NCBI RefSeq assembly: GCF_025421715.1
Contig: NZ_JAOEFC010000004.1
Location: forward strand, 124,001 to 188,000
Direction of reading: 5' to 3'
Length of the DNA: 64,000 nt
Source of the DNA: Microbacterium festucae
GTDB lineage: Bacteria; Actinomycetota; Actinomycetes; Actinomycetales; Microbacteriaceae
Shown here: piece after piece, positions 11,195-64,000 of the stretch
Numbering within the stretch: the stretch's first letter is position 1
How the letters are laid out: the number at the start of each line of letters is the position of its first letter
Notes under the pieces: model-generated
Seen by the model: only the letters and a program-made list of their open reading frames with translations
Told to the model about the DNA's origin: nothing
Databases searched by the model: none
Program-made: the position numbers and the translations under genes

Positions 11195-12949
11195 ATGAAG
11201 CTCACTCGGAAGGTGGTGCTGACGGTCGCAGCGATCGTCACCGCCGGCTCCTTGGCCTCCTGCTCGGGCACTGCCGCCCCGACCCGCACCGCGATCAGCG
11301 AGTTCCCCGACAAGTGGGACAACGAGATCACGATCGACGTGTTCGACGGGCTGGCGAACTACATGGGGGTCCAGCAGGGCTGGTTCGCCAAGATCGTCAA
11401 GGACAAGTTCAACATGAAGCTCAACATCATCGCGCCCAACGTGGCCGGTGGTGGAGACACCCTGTACAACACGCGCGTCGCCGCCGGCGACCTCGGCGAC
11501 ATGATCATCACCGACAAGGGTCAGAAGCTCGACGAGCTGATCAAGGGTGGCCTGGTCATGGATGTCAAGGACATCTACCCGGCCATGAAGAACGCCGAGA
11601 CCTACGACGCCGCCGTGCAGAACCTCGCCGGCGACACGGGCGGCGTCTACGCCTTCCCGACCTCGGTCTCCTCGCTCAAGCCCACCGAGGCGTCGGAGGG
11701 TCTGAACCCGACGTTCGGCCCGTTCATCCGCTGGGACCTCTACAAGCAGCTCGGCTACCCGGAGCTCGGCACGCTCGAGGACCTCATCCCGGTTCTCCAG
11801 CAGATGCACGACCTGGAGCCCACCGCCCCCAACGGCAAGCCCACCTACGCCTTCTCCCTGTTCAAGGACTGGGACGGCAACATGATGAACAACGCGAAGC
11901 AGCCCGCGACGTTCTACGGCTACGACGAGATGGGCTTCGCCCTCGCGCAGGCCGACGGCTCCGACTACCAGTCGATCCTCGACTCCGACAGCGGCTACGT
12001 GCGCAGCCTGCGCCTCTACTTCGAGGCCAACAAGCTCGGCCTCGTCGACCCCGAATCGACCACGCAGAACTACGACACGCTGTACTCGAAGTTCCAGAAC
12101 GGCCAGGTCATGTTCTCGTGGTGGCCGTGGCTGGGTCAGACCGCCTACAACACCGAAGAGAACATGGCCGCCGGCAAGGGCTTCGAGATCGCCCCCGTCG
12201 CCGACCAGAAGATCTTCTCCTACGGTGCCGAGGCGTACGGCGGCAAGCAGGTCTTCGCCATCGGCTCCAAGGCCGAGGACCCGGAGCGCATCGCCGCGTT
12301 CATCGACTGGCTGTACTCGTCGGAGGGCGCCTACGCCAACAGTGCGCAGACGCAGGGCTCGGCCGGGCCCGAGGGCCTCACGTGGGAGCTCAACGCCGAC
12401 GGTGAGCCGCAGCTGACCGACTTCGGCAACGAGGTCTTCCTGCAGGGTGGGGCCAACGTGCCCGAGGAGTGGGGCGGCGGCGACTACGCCGACGGCGTCT
12501 CGGCCCTCAACGCCCCGTCGGTGCTCCCCGTGTCGGTCGACCCCGACACCGGCTACCCGTACAGCTACACCTTCTGGCCGTCGTACCAGGAGGCCACGGC
12601 CAACGCCCTCTCCGAGGACTGGTCGGCCCAGATGGGCGGCGCCACCTCGACGATGGAGTACCTGAAGAACAGCGACCAGCTGACCGTCGCCCCGGGTGCC
12701 AGCTACGCGGCCCCCGCCGACACGTCGGAGATCGAGACGCTGCGCAACCAGGTCAAGGCCGTCATCGTGCAGTACTCGTGGCAGATGGTCTTCGCCACCA
12801 GCGACGCCCAGTTCGAGTCGCTGCTCAAGGAGATGCAGGACACCGCGTCGGGCCTCGGCTACGACAAGGTGCTCGAGGTCGACATGGCCAACGCCAAGGA
12901 GCAGAACGACGCCCGCGTCGCCATCGCTGCGGAGTTCGGCGGCGAGTGA
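11195..12949 (+). CDS. Lpl-type oligosaccharide-binding lipoprotein
   Basis: Solute-binding lipoprotein of the importer, 584 residues, long for the class but normal for the LplA/YtcQ group. The signal peptide MKLTRKVVLTVAAIVTAGSL ends in the lipobox LASC (Cys about 23). Trp/Tyr-rich stretches such as FSWWPWLGQTAYN suggest aromatic sugar-binding subsites. AAAGGAA precedes the ATG by six bases. It is the last gene of the three-gene operon, and no ATPase follows. With GH95, GH42, GH31 and GH3 nearby, branched xyloglucan oligosaccharides are the likely ligand (inference). Confidence 0.92.
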   Translation: MKLTRKVVLTVAAIVTAGSLASCSGTAAPTRTAISEFPDKWDNEITIDVFDGLANYMGVQQGWFAKIVKDKFNMKLNIIAPNVAGGGDTLYNTRVAAGDLGDMIITDKGQKLDELIKGGLVMDVKDIYPAMKNAETYDAAVQNLAGDTGGVYAFPTSVSSLKPTEASEGLNPTFGPFIRWDLYKQLGYPELGTLEDLIPVLQQMHDLEPTAPNGKPTYAFSLFKDWDGNMMNNAKQPATFYGYDEMGFALAQADGSDYQSILDSDSGYVRSLRLYFEANKLGLVDPESTTQNYDTLYSKFQNGQVMFSWWPWLGQTAYNTEENMAAGKGFEIAPVADQKIFSYGAEAYGGKQVFAIGSKAEDPERIAAFIDWLYSSEGAYANSAQTQGSAGPEGLTWELNADGEPQLTDFGNEVFLQGGANVPEEWGGGDYADGVSALNAPSVLPVSVDPDTGYPYSYTFWPSYQEATANALSEDWSAQMGGATSTMEYLKNSDQLTVAPGASYAAPADTSEIETLRNQVKAVIVQYSWQMVFATSDAQFESLLKEMQDTASGLGYDKVLEVDMANAKEQNDARVAIAAEFGGE

Positions 12950-12988
12950 CAGTGGTGAGCTGACCCGCGGGTCGGCTGCACATCCGGA

Positions 12989-13014
12989 GGGTCCGGGGCT
13001 TCGGCTCCGGGCCC
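12989..13014 (+). terminator. Stem-loop terminator after the importer operon
   Basis: GGGTCCGGGGC and GCTCCGGGCCC form an 11-bp stem (with G-T pairs) closed by a TTCG tetraloop, 40 bases after the stop codon. No T-run follows, which is usual in high-G+C Actinobacteria. Confidence 0.6.
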
Positions 13015-13059
13015 TTCGGGGTGTTCGGGGGGTGTTTCGTTGGCGCGCGGTTTGCGGTT

Positions 13060-14400
13060 TGCGGTTTGCGGTTTGCGGGACGCGGGGTCGGGGCGGGTCC
13101 CGGAGAGTGCGGGTGCTCGGGTGGGTGGGGTGCCGTTTGCGGGACGGGAGAGAGGGGTGGGTCCCGCGATCTGCGGGTGCTGAGGCTGCGGGGCGCTGTT
13201 TGGGGGACATGGTGCGTGGGCGGGTCCCGCGAACTGCGGGCTCGGGCTGCCGCATCCGTCGTTTGCGGGACGGTCCGGCGGGCGGGGTCGCACAGACTGC
13301 GGATGCCGTCGGCGCGCGGCCCCCGCCGCGGTCGCCGCCTCCGAGGGGTGGTCTGAGCCGCGGATGCCGGGAGCGGTGGGCCCGCGGTGGCGGATGGCGC
13401 CGATGCGTCCCGCAATCGGTGGCTACAGGCCCTCGCATCCGCATTCTGTGGGACACGGTGTCGGGGCGGGTCACGCGTCCGGTGGGTTGAGGCCCATGCA
13501 GTCGCCACTTGCGGGACATGCTCTCCAGGCGGGTCGCGCAACCTGCGCGTCGAGGCCGTCGCATTCGCCGTTTGTGGGACACGGCGTCGGGGCGGGTCAC
13601 GCGACCGGTGGGTTGAGGCCCACCCAGTCGCCACTTGCGGGACATGCTCTCCAGGCGGGTCGCGCAACCTGCGCGTCGAGGCCGTCGCATTCGCATGCTG
13701 CGGGACGTGGTGTCGGGGCGGGTCACGCGACCGGTGGGTTGAGGCCGCCGCATCCGCCGTTTGTGGGACGTGCTGTCGGGGCGGATGCACAACCGGTGGG
13801 TTCGGGCCTCGCATTCGCCATCTTTGGGACATGACCTCCAGGCGGGTCACGCAACCTGCGCGTCGAGGCCCTCGCATCCGCATGCTGCGGGACGTGGTGT
13901 CGGGGCGGGTCACGCGACCGGTGGGTTGAGGCCGTCGCATCCGCCATTTGTGGGACGTGCTCTTGGGGCGCGTCACGCGATCGGTGGGTCCGGCCCCCGC
14001 AGTCGCCCTGTGCGGGACATACTCCCCGGGCGGTCACGCAACCTGCGCTTCGAGCCGTCGCATCCGCCGTTTGTGGGACGTGGTGTTGGGGCAGGTCACG
14101 CGACCTGTGGCTTGGGGCCTTCGCACCCGCCGTTTGTGGGACGTGGTGTTGGGGCGGGTCACGCAACCTGTGGGTTGGGGCTGTCGCATCCGCATTCTGT
14201 GGGACATGCGTTTAGGTCGCGTCACGCAACCGGTGGGTTCAGGGCCTCGCACCCGCCGTTTGTGGGACGCGCTCTGGGGCAGGTCACGCAAACGGTGGTT
14301 TGAGGGCCTCGCACCAGCTACTTGCGGGACACGCCCTCGGGCCGCGTCACGCGACTGGTGGGTTCCGGGCGCCGCACCCGCTGTCTGCGGGACCCGCCCC
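13060..14400. repeat. Tandem array of about 20 units of ~62.5 bp
   Basis: A core of GGGAC(A/G)(T/C)G recurs at 13077, 13141, 13204, 13267, 13450, 13513, 13576, 13639, 13702, 13764, 13826, 13889, 13951, 14014, 14075, 14137, 14200, 14262, 14326 and 14389, steps of 61-64 bp. The 183-bp gap fits three decayed units. Each unit continues with GGCGGGTCACGC, then ACCGGTGGGTTGAGGCC or ACCTGCGCGTCGAGGCC, then GTCGCATCCGC. The two kinds alternate between 13450 and 13701, giving a 126-bp higher-order repeat. The edge units are the most degenerate. Steps not divisible by three exclude a repeat protein. The array fills the space between two converging genes. A (TTTGCGG)4 run starts near 13050. Confidence 0.92.
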
Positions 14401-14457
14401 GCCGACGCGACCTCAGACCCCGACCAGACCCAGACCCGCCCCCCACCCCCGCCCGAC

Positions 14458-15102
14458 CTACTCCCGCTCGGCGCCGGTGATGTCCTCGTCGACGACGGCG
14501 GCGTCGTAGCGGGCGTAGACGGAGCGGAACAGGAACGCGGTGGCGTAGGCGCCCACCGAGAAGGCGATGGTGACGACGATCACCCAGAACACCGGGAACA
14601 GCACGGTGATCGCGAAGACGGTCGCCGGGATGATGAGGATGCCGAAGGTGCGGACGGGCTCGGCGGCGGGCAGCAGCAGCGCGTTCTTGAGGGTCTGGCG
14701 GAAGCTGTTGCGGAACTTCGCGGTGAGGGCCATCGCGTGCAGGAACGCCGCGAAGAAGTAGAGGGCGCCGGCGGCCGAGACGATGACGGCTCCGATCGCG
14801 AGGGGTTCGGGGCTGGCCGCCCAGAACGCCGTCGAGAACGCGAGCAGCACGAACGGGATGAGCAGCGACAGTCCGAGCAGCGTCGCGCGCGGGAAGTTGC
14901 GCACCAAGGCGGGGAAGTAGTCGGCGACGGGGCGTCCGCTCTCGTCGTCGGAGTAGCGAATCGTCACCTCGTAGAGCGCGCTCGTGGCGGCGGGGATCGT
15001 GACCAGCGGGATGCAGGTGACGATGTACATCAGGTTGAGGGCGACGAAGGCGATGAAGGCCGAGAGCCCGCCGTAGGTGCGGCCGTAGACGTTGATCTGC
15101 AT
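14458..15102 (-). CDS. DUF624 membrane protein (YesL family)
   Basis: A 214-residue integral membrane protein of the YesL/DUF624 family, found next to oligosaccharide ABC importers; its function is not established. Five to six hydrophobic segments are visible, starting with LSAFIAFVALNLMYIVTCIPLVTIP. Charged loops between them include SDDESGRPVADYF and an amphipathic KFRNSFRQTLKNALLLP. The start is ATG at 15102, two bases after the lacI stop, so the gene ends a three-gene operon with GH95 and lacI. A second DUF624 gene accompanies another importer at 57524. Confidence 0.85.
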   Translation of the reverse strand: MQINVYGRTYGGLSAFIAFVALNLMYIVTCIPLVTIPAATSALYEVTIRYSDDESGRPVADYFPALVRNFPRATLLGLSLLIPFVLLAFSTAFWAASPEPLAIGAVIVSAAGALYFFAAFLHAMALTAKFRNSFRQTLKNALLLPAAEPVRTFGILIIPATVFAITVLFPVFWVIVVTIAFSVGAYATAFLFRSVYARYDAAVVDEDITGAERE

Positions 15103-25624: not shown

Positions 25625-25691
25625 CGAGAGAACAACGGGGCGCCGAGAGAACGGGTGTCGACCGTTCCCTCGGCGCCCAGGTGTTCTCTCG
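25625..25691. repeat. 67-bp palindromic repeat, family A copy 2
   Basis: Runs from CGAGAGAAC to GTTCTCTCG with inner CGCCGAGAGAACGGG. It lies 26 bases after the GH3 stop and before the converging histidine kinase gene, a position suited to bidirectional termination. Confidence 0.9.
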
Positions 25692-36216: not shown

Positions 36217-36250
36217 CCCGCTGACCCGCTGCGCCCCTCCTCCCTGTCCG

Positions 36251-36317
36251 CGAGAGAACAACCGGGCGCCGAGGGTACGGGTGACGCCCGTGCTCTCGGC
36301 GCCGCGGTGTTCTCTCG
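36251..36317. repeat. 67-bp palindromic repeat, family A copy 3
   Basis: Runs from CGAGAGAAC to GTTCTCTCG between xylA and xylB, which are co-directional. Here it could lower xylB expression relative to xylA by partial termination, or protect the xylA message 3' end. Confidence 0.9.
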
Positions 36318-36351
36318 CGGACGGTGGGGCCGTGAACGAGAGGATGCCGGC

Positions 36352-37635: not shown

Positions 37636-37683
37636 CCCGGCTCGCCCCGACGGACCCGGGCTCGCCCCGGCCCGACCCGGCCG

Positions 37684-37750
37684 CGAGAGAACACCTGCGC
37701 GCCGAGGGTGCGGGTGCCACCCGTTCTCTCGGCGCTGAGATGTTCTCTCG
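37684..37750. repeat. 67-bp palindromic repeat, family A copy 4
   Basis: Runs from CGAGAGAAC to GTTCTCTCG between the xylB stop and the converging alarmone synthetase gene. It differs from copies 1-3 in the outer spacer (ACCTGCGC instead of AACNGGGC), yet keeps the 67-bp length. Confidence 0.9.
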
Positions 37751-37774
37751 CGGGCGAGGGGCGACCTGTGGGGC

Positions 37775-47149: not shown

Positions 47150-47266
47150 GCGAGGGGTGGGGCTCGGGGTGCGCGTGCCGCTCCACGTACTCTGAGCTGG
47201 CGGCCGGCCGCGGCCGCGCCGTCGGATGCCATCACCCTCCGGCCCCGACCGCCAGCCACCGGGCGC

Positions 47267-47345
47267 CGAGTGCACGAGGTAGCGCCGAGCGAACGGCATA
47301 CGCGCGGGCTCGCGGCCGTGCGTTCGGCGGTAAGCCGTGCAGTCG
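47267..47345. repeat. 79-bp palindromic repeat, family B copy 3
   Basis: Runs from CGAGTGCAC to GTGCAGTCG, combining the left end of copy 1 with the right end of copy 2, hence one outer mismatch. It is the copy closest to the converging acyltransferase gene. Confidence 0.88.
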
Positions 47346-47435
47346 GCGCAGGGGGGCGGAGCAGCCCGGGGCATACGGCACCGGGGCCCCCGACCCCGGA
47401 CCCCAGCCCCCTCACCCCCAGACCCCAGCCCCACC

Positions 47436-63473: not shown

Positions 63474-63640
63474 CGGTGGGTGCTGGGGGTCGGTGCTGGG
63501 GGTCGGGGGTGCTGGGGGTCGGGAGTGCTGGGGGTCGGGGGTGCGCGCCTCGGGCACCGAGTGCCGGGCGGCGTGCTTCGGTCGCCGAGTGCCGGGCGCG
63601 TGCTTCGGTCGCCGAGTGCGCGAGCGCGTGCCTCGGTCGC
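63474..63640. repeat. Simple and degenerate tandem repeats after eda
   Basis: TGCTGGGGGTCGG is repeated about five times with small changes (63474-63543). Then TCGGTCGCCGAGTGC recurs three to four times at about 27-bp steps (63545-63640), each copy ending like the left edge of the family B element that follows. The second part looks like partial duplications of that edge. Confidence 0.75.
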
Positions 63641-63719
63641 CGAGTGCACGAGGTAGCGCCGAGTGAACGGCATCCGCACGGTGTTTAGGTCGTGTACTCG
63701 GCGGTAGGTCGTTCACTCG
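63641..63719. repeat. 79-bp palindromic repeat, family B copy 4
   Basis: Runs from CGAGTGCAC to GTTCACTCG with inner GCGCCGAGTGAACGG and its partner. The right end differs from copies 1-3, giving a single outer mismatch. It is nearly identical to copy 5, so the two may be a recent duplication. Confidence 0.9.
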
Positions 63720-63858
63720 GGGATGGTGATGCCGCGTGGTGAGTGTGCGCGGGGGGCGTCGAGCTCGGGTCCGGGTGCCGGGGCGTGCGGCTCGGGTTCG
63801 GGTGCCGGGGTGCGGGGCGCCGGATGCGAGGTGCCGCCTTCTGGGCGCCCTCGGTCGC

Positions 63859-63937
63859 CGAGTGCACGAGGTAGCGCCGAGTGAACGGCATCCGCACGGT
63901 GTCTAGGTCGTGTACTCGGCGGTAGGTCGTTCACTCG
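63859..63937. repeat. 79-bp palindromic repeat, family B copy 5
   Basis: Runs from CGAGTGCAC to GTTCACTCG; differs from copy 4 by one base in the centre (GTGTCTAGG against GTGTTTAGG). The 139 bp between the copies hold no gene; GGTGCCGGGGYG repeats occur there. A (TGTGGG)n run follows near 63960, at the window edge. Confidence 0.9.
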
Positions 63938-64000
63938 GGGATGGGAATACTGCCTGGTGGGTGTGGGTGTGGGTGTGGGTGTGGCGTCGAGCTTGAGTCC

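Follow-up and report, generated by a model that had tools for sequence, protein, structure and literature searches.

The window analysed here, a stretch of DNA of 64,000 nucleotides, contains a tandem array of short units between two convergently transcribed genes (Table 1). What is this array: a gene for a repeat protein, a terminator, a row of sites for a DNA-binding protein, or a repeat that multiplies for its own sake?

Table 1. Positions in the window of the array, its parts, its neighbors and related palindromes.
Feature	Position	Strand	Description
ABC-transporter solute-binding protein gene	11195..12949	+	Left neighbor; named by its position after two permease genes
Short hairpin	12988..13015	+	AGGGTCCGGGGC-TTCG-GCTCCGGGCCCT; directly 3' of the left gene; read from the sequence
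GCGGTTT heptamer	13047..13078	+	4.6 copies; left array edge, running into the first half-site
Whole array	13063..14397	.	About 20 units of 61-64 bp, each of two inverted half-sites
Left rim	13063..13435	.	Four recognizable units with TTTGCGGGAC or a near form, then about 120-180 bp degraded
Local 126-bp higher-order stretch	13436..13750	.
Remaining homogeneous center	13751..14374	.	Steps of 61-63 bp
Right rim	14375..14397	.	Final decayed unit, then C-rich DNA until the next gene
DUF624 (YesL-like) membrane protein gene	14458..15102	-	Right neighbor; convergent
Third palindrome family	2749-2815, 25625-25691, 36246-36322, 37681-37753		CGAGAGAACA...TGTTCTCTCG; 67-77 bp, loop 1-7
Fourth palindrome family	47263-47349, 63640-63720, 63858-63938		CGAGTGCACGAGGTAGCGCCGAGT...

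The array and its neighbors

The genome from which the window comes, hereafter the home genome, is that of a Microbacterium near M. telephonicum. The solute-binding protein encoded to the left of the array, for which no Pfam match was found, is 93% identical to its M. telephonicum counterpart. A 73% identical copy of this actinobacterial protein is encoded on a contig labelled Stenotrophomonas maltophilia (L017), which is probably an assembly contamination. Judging from its sequence, the short hairpin behind the gene is likely the gene's terminator and separate from the array; hairpins like it are also found behind the orthologous gene in other species.

A preliminary description of this DNA had reported an array of about 20 units filling a convergent intergenic space, most homogeneous in the middle and decayed at the rims. 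All of this was borne out. About 20 units were recovered at 13063-14390, and Tandem Repeats Finder (TRF) detected a period of 63 (15 copies, score 657) at 13427-14364 as well as periods of 126 (score 793) and 187 (score 857), all within 13427-14365. Splitting the array at GGGAC gave 20 anchors between 13077 and 14389. The first steps are 64, 63, 63 and 183 bp and the later ones 61-63 bp; the 183-bp step spans a degraded stretch. Comparison of unit identities confirmed that the middle is the most uniform part, and the left-rim units have low identity to the center.

The 126-bp higher-order repeat that had also been proposed is present, but only locally. Within its stretch the unit at 13499 recurs unchanged at 13625, and the partners of these two, at 13436 and 13562, are 87% alike. 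Similar units come back at 13812 (86%) and 14000 (79%), and mean unit identity at lag 2 or 3 (0.75) is slightly above that at lag 1 (0.71).

A repeat protein had been dismissed on the grounds that the steps are not multiples of three. This argument fails because the modal step, 63, equals 3 x 21, and frames stay open over several units. Its conclusion nevertheless holds: open reading frames in the array score -0.5 to -1.0 per codon with a flat GC123 (about 0.7/0.7/0.7), as compared to codon scores of +1.15 and +1.20 for the flanking genes. Because its codon scores are negative and its GC content has no frame preference, the array does not look coding, and we rejected a repeat-protein gene.

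A genome-wide family of 63-bp arrays

Units of this kind are found throughout the home genome. With the array as query we obtained 66 matches at about 28 places, and a profile trained on these matches identified 27 arrays with 3-17 units each, 259 units in total; this is a minimum (at least 27 arrays), as a census built from similarity matches and the stretches surrounding them may miss solitary or decayed units. One candidate place (L094) contained 0 units. We refer to this family of 63-bp-unit arrays, which includes the array in the window, as F1.

The F1 unit (consensus GCCGGCACCCGCAGTTTGCGGGACGTGCCGGCGGGGCGGGTCCCGCAAACGGCGGGTGCGGGG) consists of two inverted copies of (A)CCCGCMGTTTGCGGGAC, and the consensus is self-reverse-complementary around a single dyad, with a correlation of 0.83 as compared to a median of 0.14 for other shifts. 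The units of the array do run in one direction, as previously noted, but a unit almost equals its own reverse complement, so that orientation has only a partial meaning here. Among steps between 55 and 71 bp, 165 of 203 are exactly 63 bp. The best-conserved columns are CCCGC, TTTG and GGGAC together with their mirror images, and the freest are the central 15 bp and position 13. Units are about 59% identical across arrays (0.586) and 66% identical inside one array (0.661); these values and the single identical unit pair support the local growth by duplication that the layout had suggested.

From one half-site center to the next, the distance alternates between about 41 bp (roughly 4 helical turns) and about 22 bp (roughly 2), and the array is therefore a regularly spaced row of inverted sites. 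Helical phasing of the half-sites, that is, their placement on one face of the DNA, is suggested rather than shown, because inserts between units do not come in whole helical turns. The spacing could also partly reflect the common descent of the units.

No F1 array in the home genome overlaps a predicted gene, as called with a codon model trained within this analysis. In a count that defined clusters by half-site pairs and gave 26 of them in the home genome, the arrays of the home genome, M. telephonicum and the genome G192 were found in 36 convergent, 19 co-directional and 4 divergent positions. Compared to home-locus gaps of at least 100 bp, convergent placement is enriched (p = 1e-5) and divergent placement is depleted (p = 5e-4). 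This test is conservative because the reference gaps include the array gaps themselves.

The array gaps of the home genome (L089-L114) run on average from a G-rich left end to a C-rich right end. We considered transcription as the source of this GC skew and rejected it: the left-to-right trend is the same whatever the orientation of the neighboring genes, and gene direction therefore does not explain it. One array (L110:3050-3674) sits between co-directional genes that, judged by eye, are nusG-like and rplK-like. The matching slot in M. telephonicum is a 211-bp gap, and this array may therefore be inside a transcription unit.

Other Microbacterium species

Across 198 sampled Microbacterium genomes, the F1 sequence as such hardly occurs outside the home genome. 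The same layout, with a period of 63-64 bp and different half-sites, occurs in M. telephonicum, G192 and G057; the half-site reads TTTGCGGGAC in the home genome, TTCGTGTGAC in M. telephonicum, TTTCTGAGAC in G192 and AAGTGGGAC in G057. The spacing between paired half-sites is 41-42 and 22 bp, at a period of 63-64 bp, for TTTGCGGGACATG (home), TTCGTGTGACATG (M. telephonicum) and TTTCTGAGACACG (G192), and the G057 half-site AAGTGGGACACG repeats at exactly 63 bp. In a survey, the pattern GNGACAYG-N7-11-CRTGTCNC matched 60 times in G057, 16 times in G192 and 5-9 times in each of six further genomes; the reversed pattern, used as a control, matched at most 2 times.

For 24 of the 26 home clusters tested, the left flank is present in M. 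telephonicum, in every case with the same right neighbor near. Seven of these 24 slots hold telephonicum-type sites, as compared to about one expected by chance in a rough estimate that allows for the shared preference for convergent gaps. Positions are therefore partly inherited, with the core rewritten genome-wide. The home arrays at the shared slots carry the home core; retention of an ancestral GTGAC core there was considered but found no support (p = 0.73). The other 17 slots are empty of the family in M. telephonicum, so gain or loss has occurred, and at least 4 of the 17 hold other palindromes.

The slot of the array in the window holds different palindromes in M. telephonicum, M. helvum, M. 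hibisci, M. yannicii and M. ureisolvens. In Microbacterium sp. Leaf288 (L018:7943-8489) it is occupied by a 124-bp tandem array (4.4 copies, 95% matching) that is palindromic and unrelated to the home array.

Sister palindrome families

At least three palindrome families besides F1 occur in the home genome. The second home family has the form GAGTGTCCAAGACACGCGG-N17-CCGCGTGTCTTGGACACTC (43 copies scanned, all 55 bp), and a 61-bp palindrome, GTTCATCCGTCACAGATGTACGC-N15-GCGTACATCTGTGACGGATGAAC, is present 22 times in M. helvum. In both, the arms are 94-98% identical, the spacers are 49-61% identical and indels occur in 0 copies; scans of the loci allowed a wide length range, and this count may be low as the copies were gathered by similarity. 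No target-site duplication was found at either family, which speaks against a MITE with target duplication for these two.

Copies of the second home family (L243-L262) often lie 2-5 close together with near-identical spacers, and have C-rich DNA immediately 5' and G-rich DNA immediately 3'. The M. helvum palindromes (L157-L176, L021:7847-7907) have C-rich DNA to their left and G-rich DNA to their right on either reading strand, with a GC skew of -0.53 (left) and +0.46 (right) over the adjacent 20 bp. The third home family lies mostly directly past stop codons and has well over ten genomic locations; the fourth frequently forms spaced tandem copies and is dispersed in the genome too.

Folding and RNA tests

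Single F1 units fold only slightly better than shuffled sequences (mean z = -1.55), as compared to z = -9.4 and -7.3 for the single-copy sister palindromes, which fold very well. At most variable positions the two arms of an F1 unit agree less often than expected, a deficit that rests on related units; when one unit per array was used, each of the 5 positions tested was only about 1.3-2 SD below expectation. No positive covariation between the arms, and thus no compensatory change, was seen in F1 units, nor did the sister palindromes show compensatory changes. The weak folding and the under-matched arms argue against a hairpin being what is conserved in F1. A small hairpin inside each half-site is conserved, but was rejected for want of covariation. 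A search of Rfam over 12500-15000 gave no match at E <= 1, and a known RNA family was rejected.

Comparison with known repeat systems

Clustered REPs are known as bacterial interspersed mosaic elements (BIMEs), which are bound by DNA gyrase, IHF or Pol I; BIME-2 is the type that binds gyrase. A REPIN consists of two inverted REPs that form a hairpin and is mobilized by RAYT. The MIRU-type minisatellites of mycobacteria, which are actinobacteria as well, are dispersed intergenic tandem arrays with a unit length similar to that of F1; we know of no description of two-fold symmetry in them, nor of a species-specific swap of the core.

BIMEs and REPINs are the closest described systems, and REP, BIME and REPIN repeats are linked to a Y1 transposase (PMC2817692, PMC3116915, PMC3733652). 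Searches for this enzyme (PF01797, RAYT) found none in six Microbacterium genomes while control genomes gave matches, and a RAYT partner was rejected. A GTAG or CGTC tag beside the hairpin is part of the REP definition (PMC3733652); the F1 unit consensus, which was checked in place of every copy, has neither. A phage or plasmid origin was rejected as no matches were obtained. Among the titles and abstracts listed in literature searches, none was relevant to palindromes of Microbacteriaceae or actinobacteria.

Like BIMEs, F1 arrays are extragenic, tandem and favored at gene 3' ends, with palindromic units regularly spaced in alternating orientation, the layout common to REPs, BIMEs and REPINs. 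They differ in having no Y1 transposase or tag, in occurring in another phylum than the described cases and in their stricter 63-bp step. With REPINs, F1 shares two conserved inverted ends, a less conserved spacer, many dispersed copies and a species-specific sequence; in contrast to REPINs, RAYT is absent and the units fold poorly, without the stable hairpin and compensatory changes of a REPIN. The sister families depart from REPINs in their invariant spacer length and in that compensatory changes were not seen. MITEs are, like F1, short, dispersed inverted-repeat elements; the sister families differ from them in their fixed spacer length and, in the two families examined, in the lack of target-site duplication. 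F1 works like a BIME, yet we do not file it as one, since it lacks the tag, shows no compensatory changes and, most importantly, comes without the Y1 transposase.

Interpretation

The reading we prefer, with a probability of about 0.45, is that F1 arrays are BIME-like rows of inverted half-sites that would be bound as duplex DNA by a hypothetical fast-evolving protein. The array in the window would then be one member of a dispersed, extragenic family. A sequence-specific protein, dimeric or self-associating, would bind the half-sites as double-stranded DNA in intergenic, mostly convergent gaps and would mark or organize these regions; the most natural guess is that its role is topological or insulating. 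Arrays would lengthen through tandem duplication, and the protein and half-site would change together, so that every species would have a core “dialect” of its own, at positions that are partly inherited. Against this reading, no candidate for the protein was found, and the inserts between units do not come in whole turns. Recognition of F1 as double-stranded DNA rather than as a hairpin is favored, on sequence grounds, because the spacer is fixed in length and free in sequence, the steps are strict, the units fold poorly and the arms are under-matched. A protein-binding array or chromosome-structure site was among the uses first proposed, and is supported as one option; as a whole, the earlier interpretation is partly supported. 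It had missed the two-fold symmetry of the unit, the genome-wide family and the persistence of the layout in other species with another core.

The main rival to protein binding is that these are REPIN-like selfish elements, non-autonomous and palindromic, whose half-sites would be recognition ends for a mobilizing enzyme other than Y1. Arrays would be local pile-ups, dialects would be successive subfamilies, and a role in the host would be unneeded. The dispersed copies, the several families per genome and the 17 of 24 home slots without the family in M. telephonicum all agree with this, as do the nearly invariant arms around a spacer that varies at constant length, a pattern described for REPINs (PMC3116915). 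Moreover, with at least three further palindrome families in the genome, several binding proteins would be needed, which counts against the binding model. On the other hand, the six genomes have no Y1 transposase, the two families tested have no target-site duplication, and home arrays at shared slots hold the home core and not relics of another. We regard selfish elements as possible but doubtful.

It could also be speculated that the repeats act in RNA, with transcribed units that terminate in both directions, block read-through or protect the 3' ends of the convergent transcripts; this is improbable for F1. Bidirectional termination, another of the uses first proposed, gains little from our data, since the left gene already has a hairpin of its own behind it, separate from the array, and the units fold little better than shuffled sequence. 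Runs of 17-22 units far exceed the needs of termination, the arms are less complementary than expected, and neither compensatory changes nor an Rfam match was found, although gene 3' ends and convergent gaps are preferred and the sister palindromes fold very well. Least probable is a functionless neutral expansion, or an assembly artefact, in a permissive convergent gap. Greater similarity within than between arrays, the identical pair and the unrelated Leaf288 array in the same slot agree with such a process. It is largely refuted by the conservation of the half-site core and the 63-bp step over 27 arrays that are otherwise about 59% alike, and of a core half-site with this step in four species; an artefact would not be expected to recur in independent assemblies.

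These repeats may tentatively be placed in a separate actinobacterial class of extragenic palindromes that would be independent of Y1 transposase, would have either single copies with two long inverted arms at a fixed distance or phased 63-bp arrays, and would depend on a trans-acting protein co-evolving with the arms, with species dialects at partly inherited positions. A repeat population similar to REPs, BIMEs and REPINs is present in a high-GC Gram-positive genus without Y1 transposase; its spacing is unusually strict, and close relatives differ in its core throughout the genome. The same slots with different dialects provide a natural experiment for finding the recognizing protein, one that also bears on whether the repeats serve the host or themselves.

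A dispersed palindrome family of its own was also observed in Actinomyces glycerinitolerans, with a 15-bp spacer between the arms (L044:8635-8705) and 46 matches on both strands of its genome.
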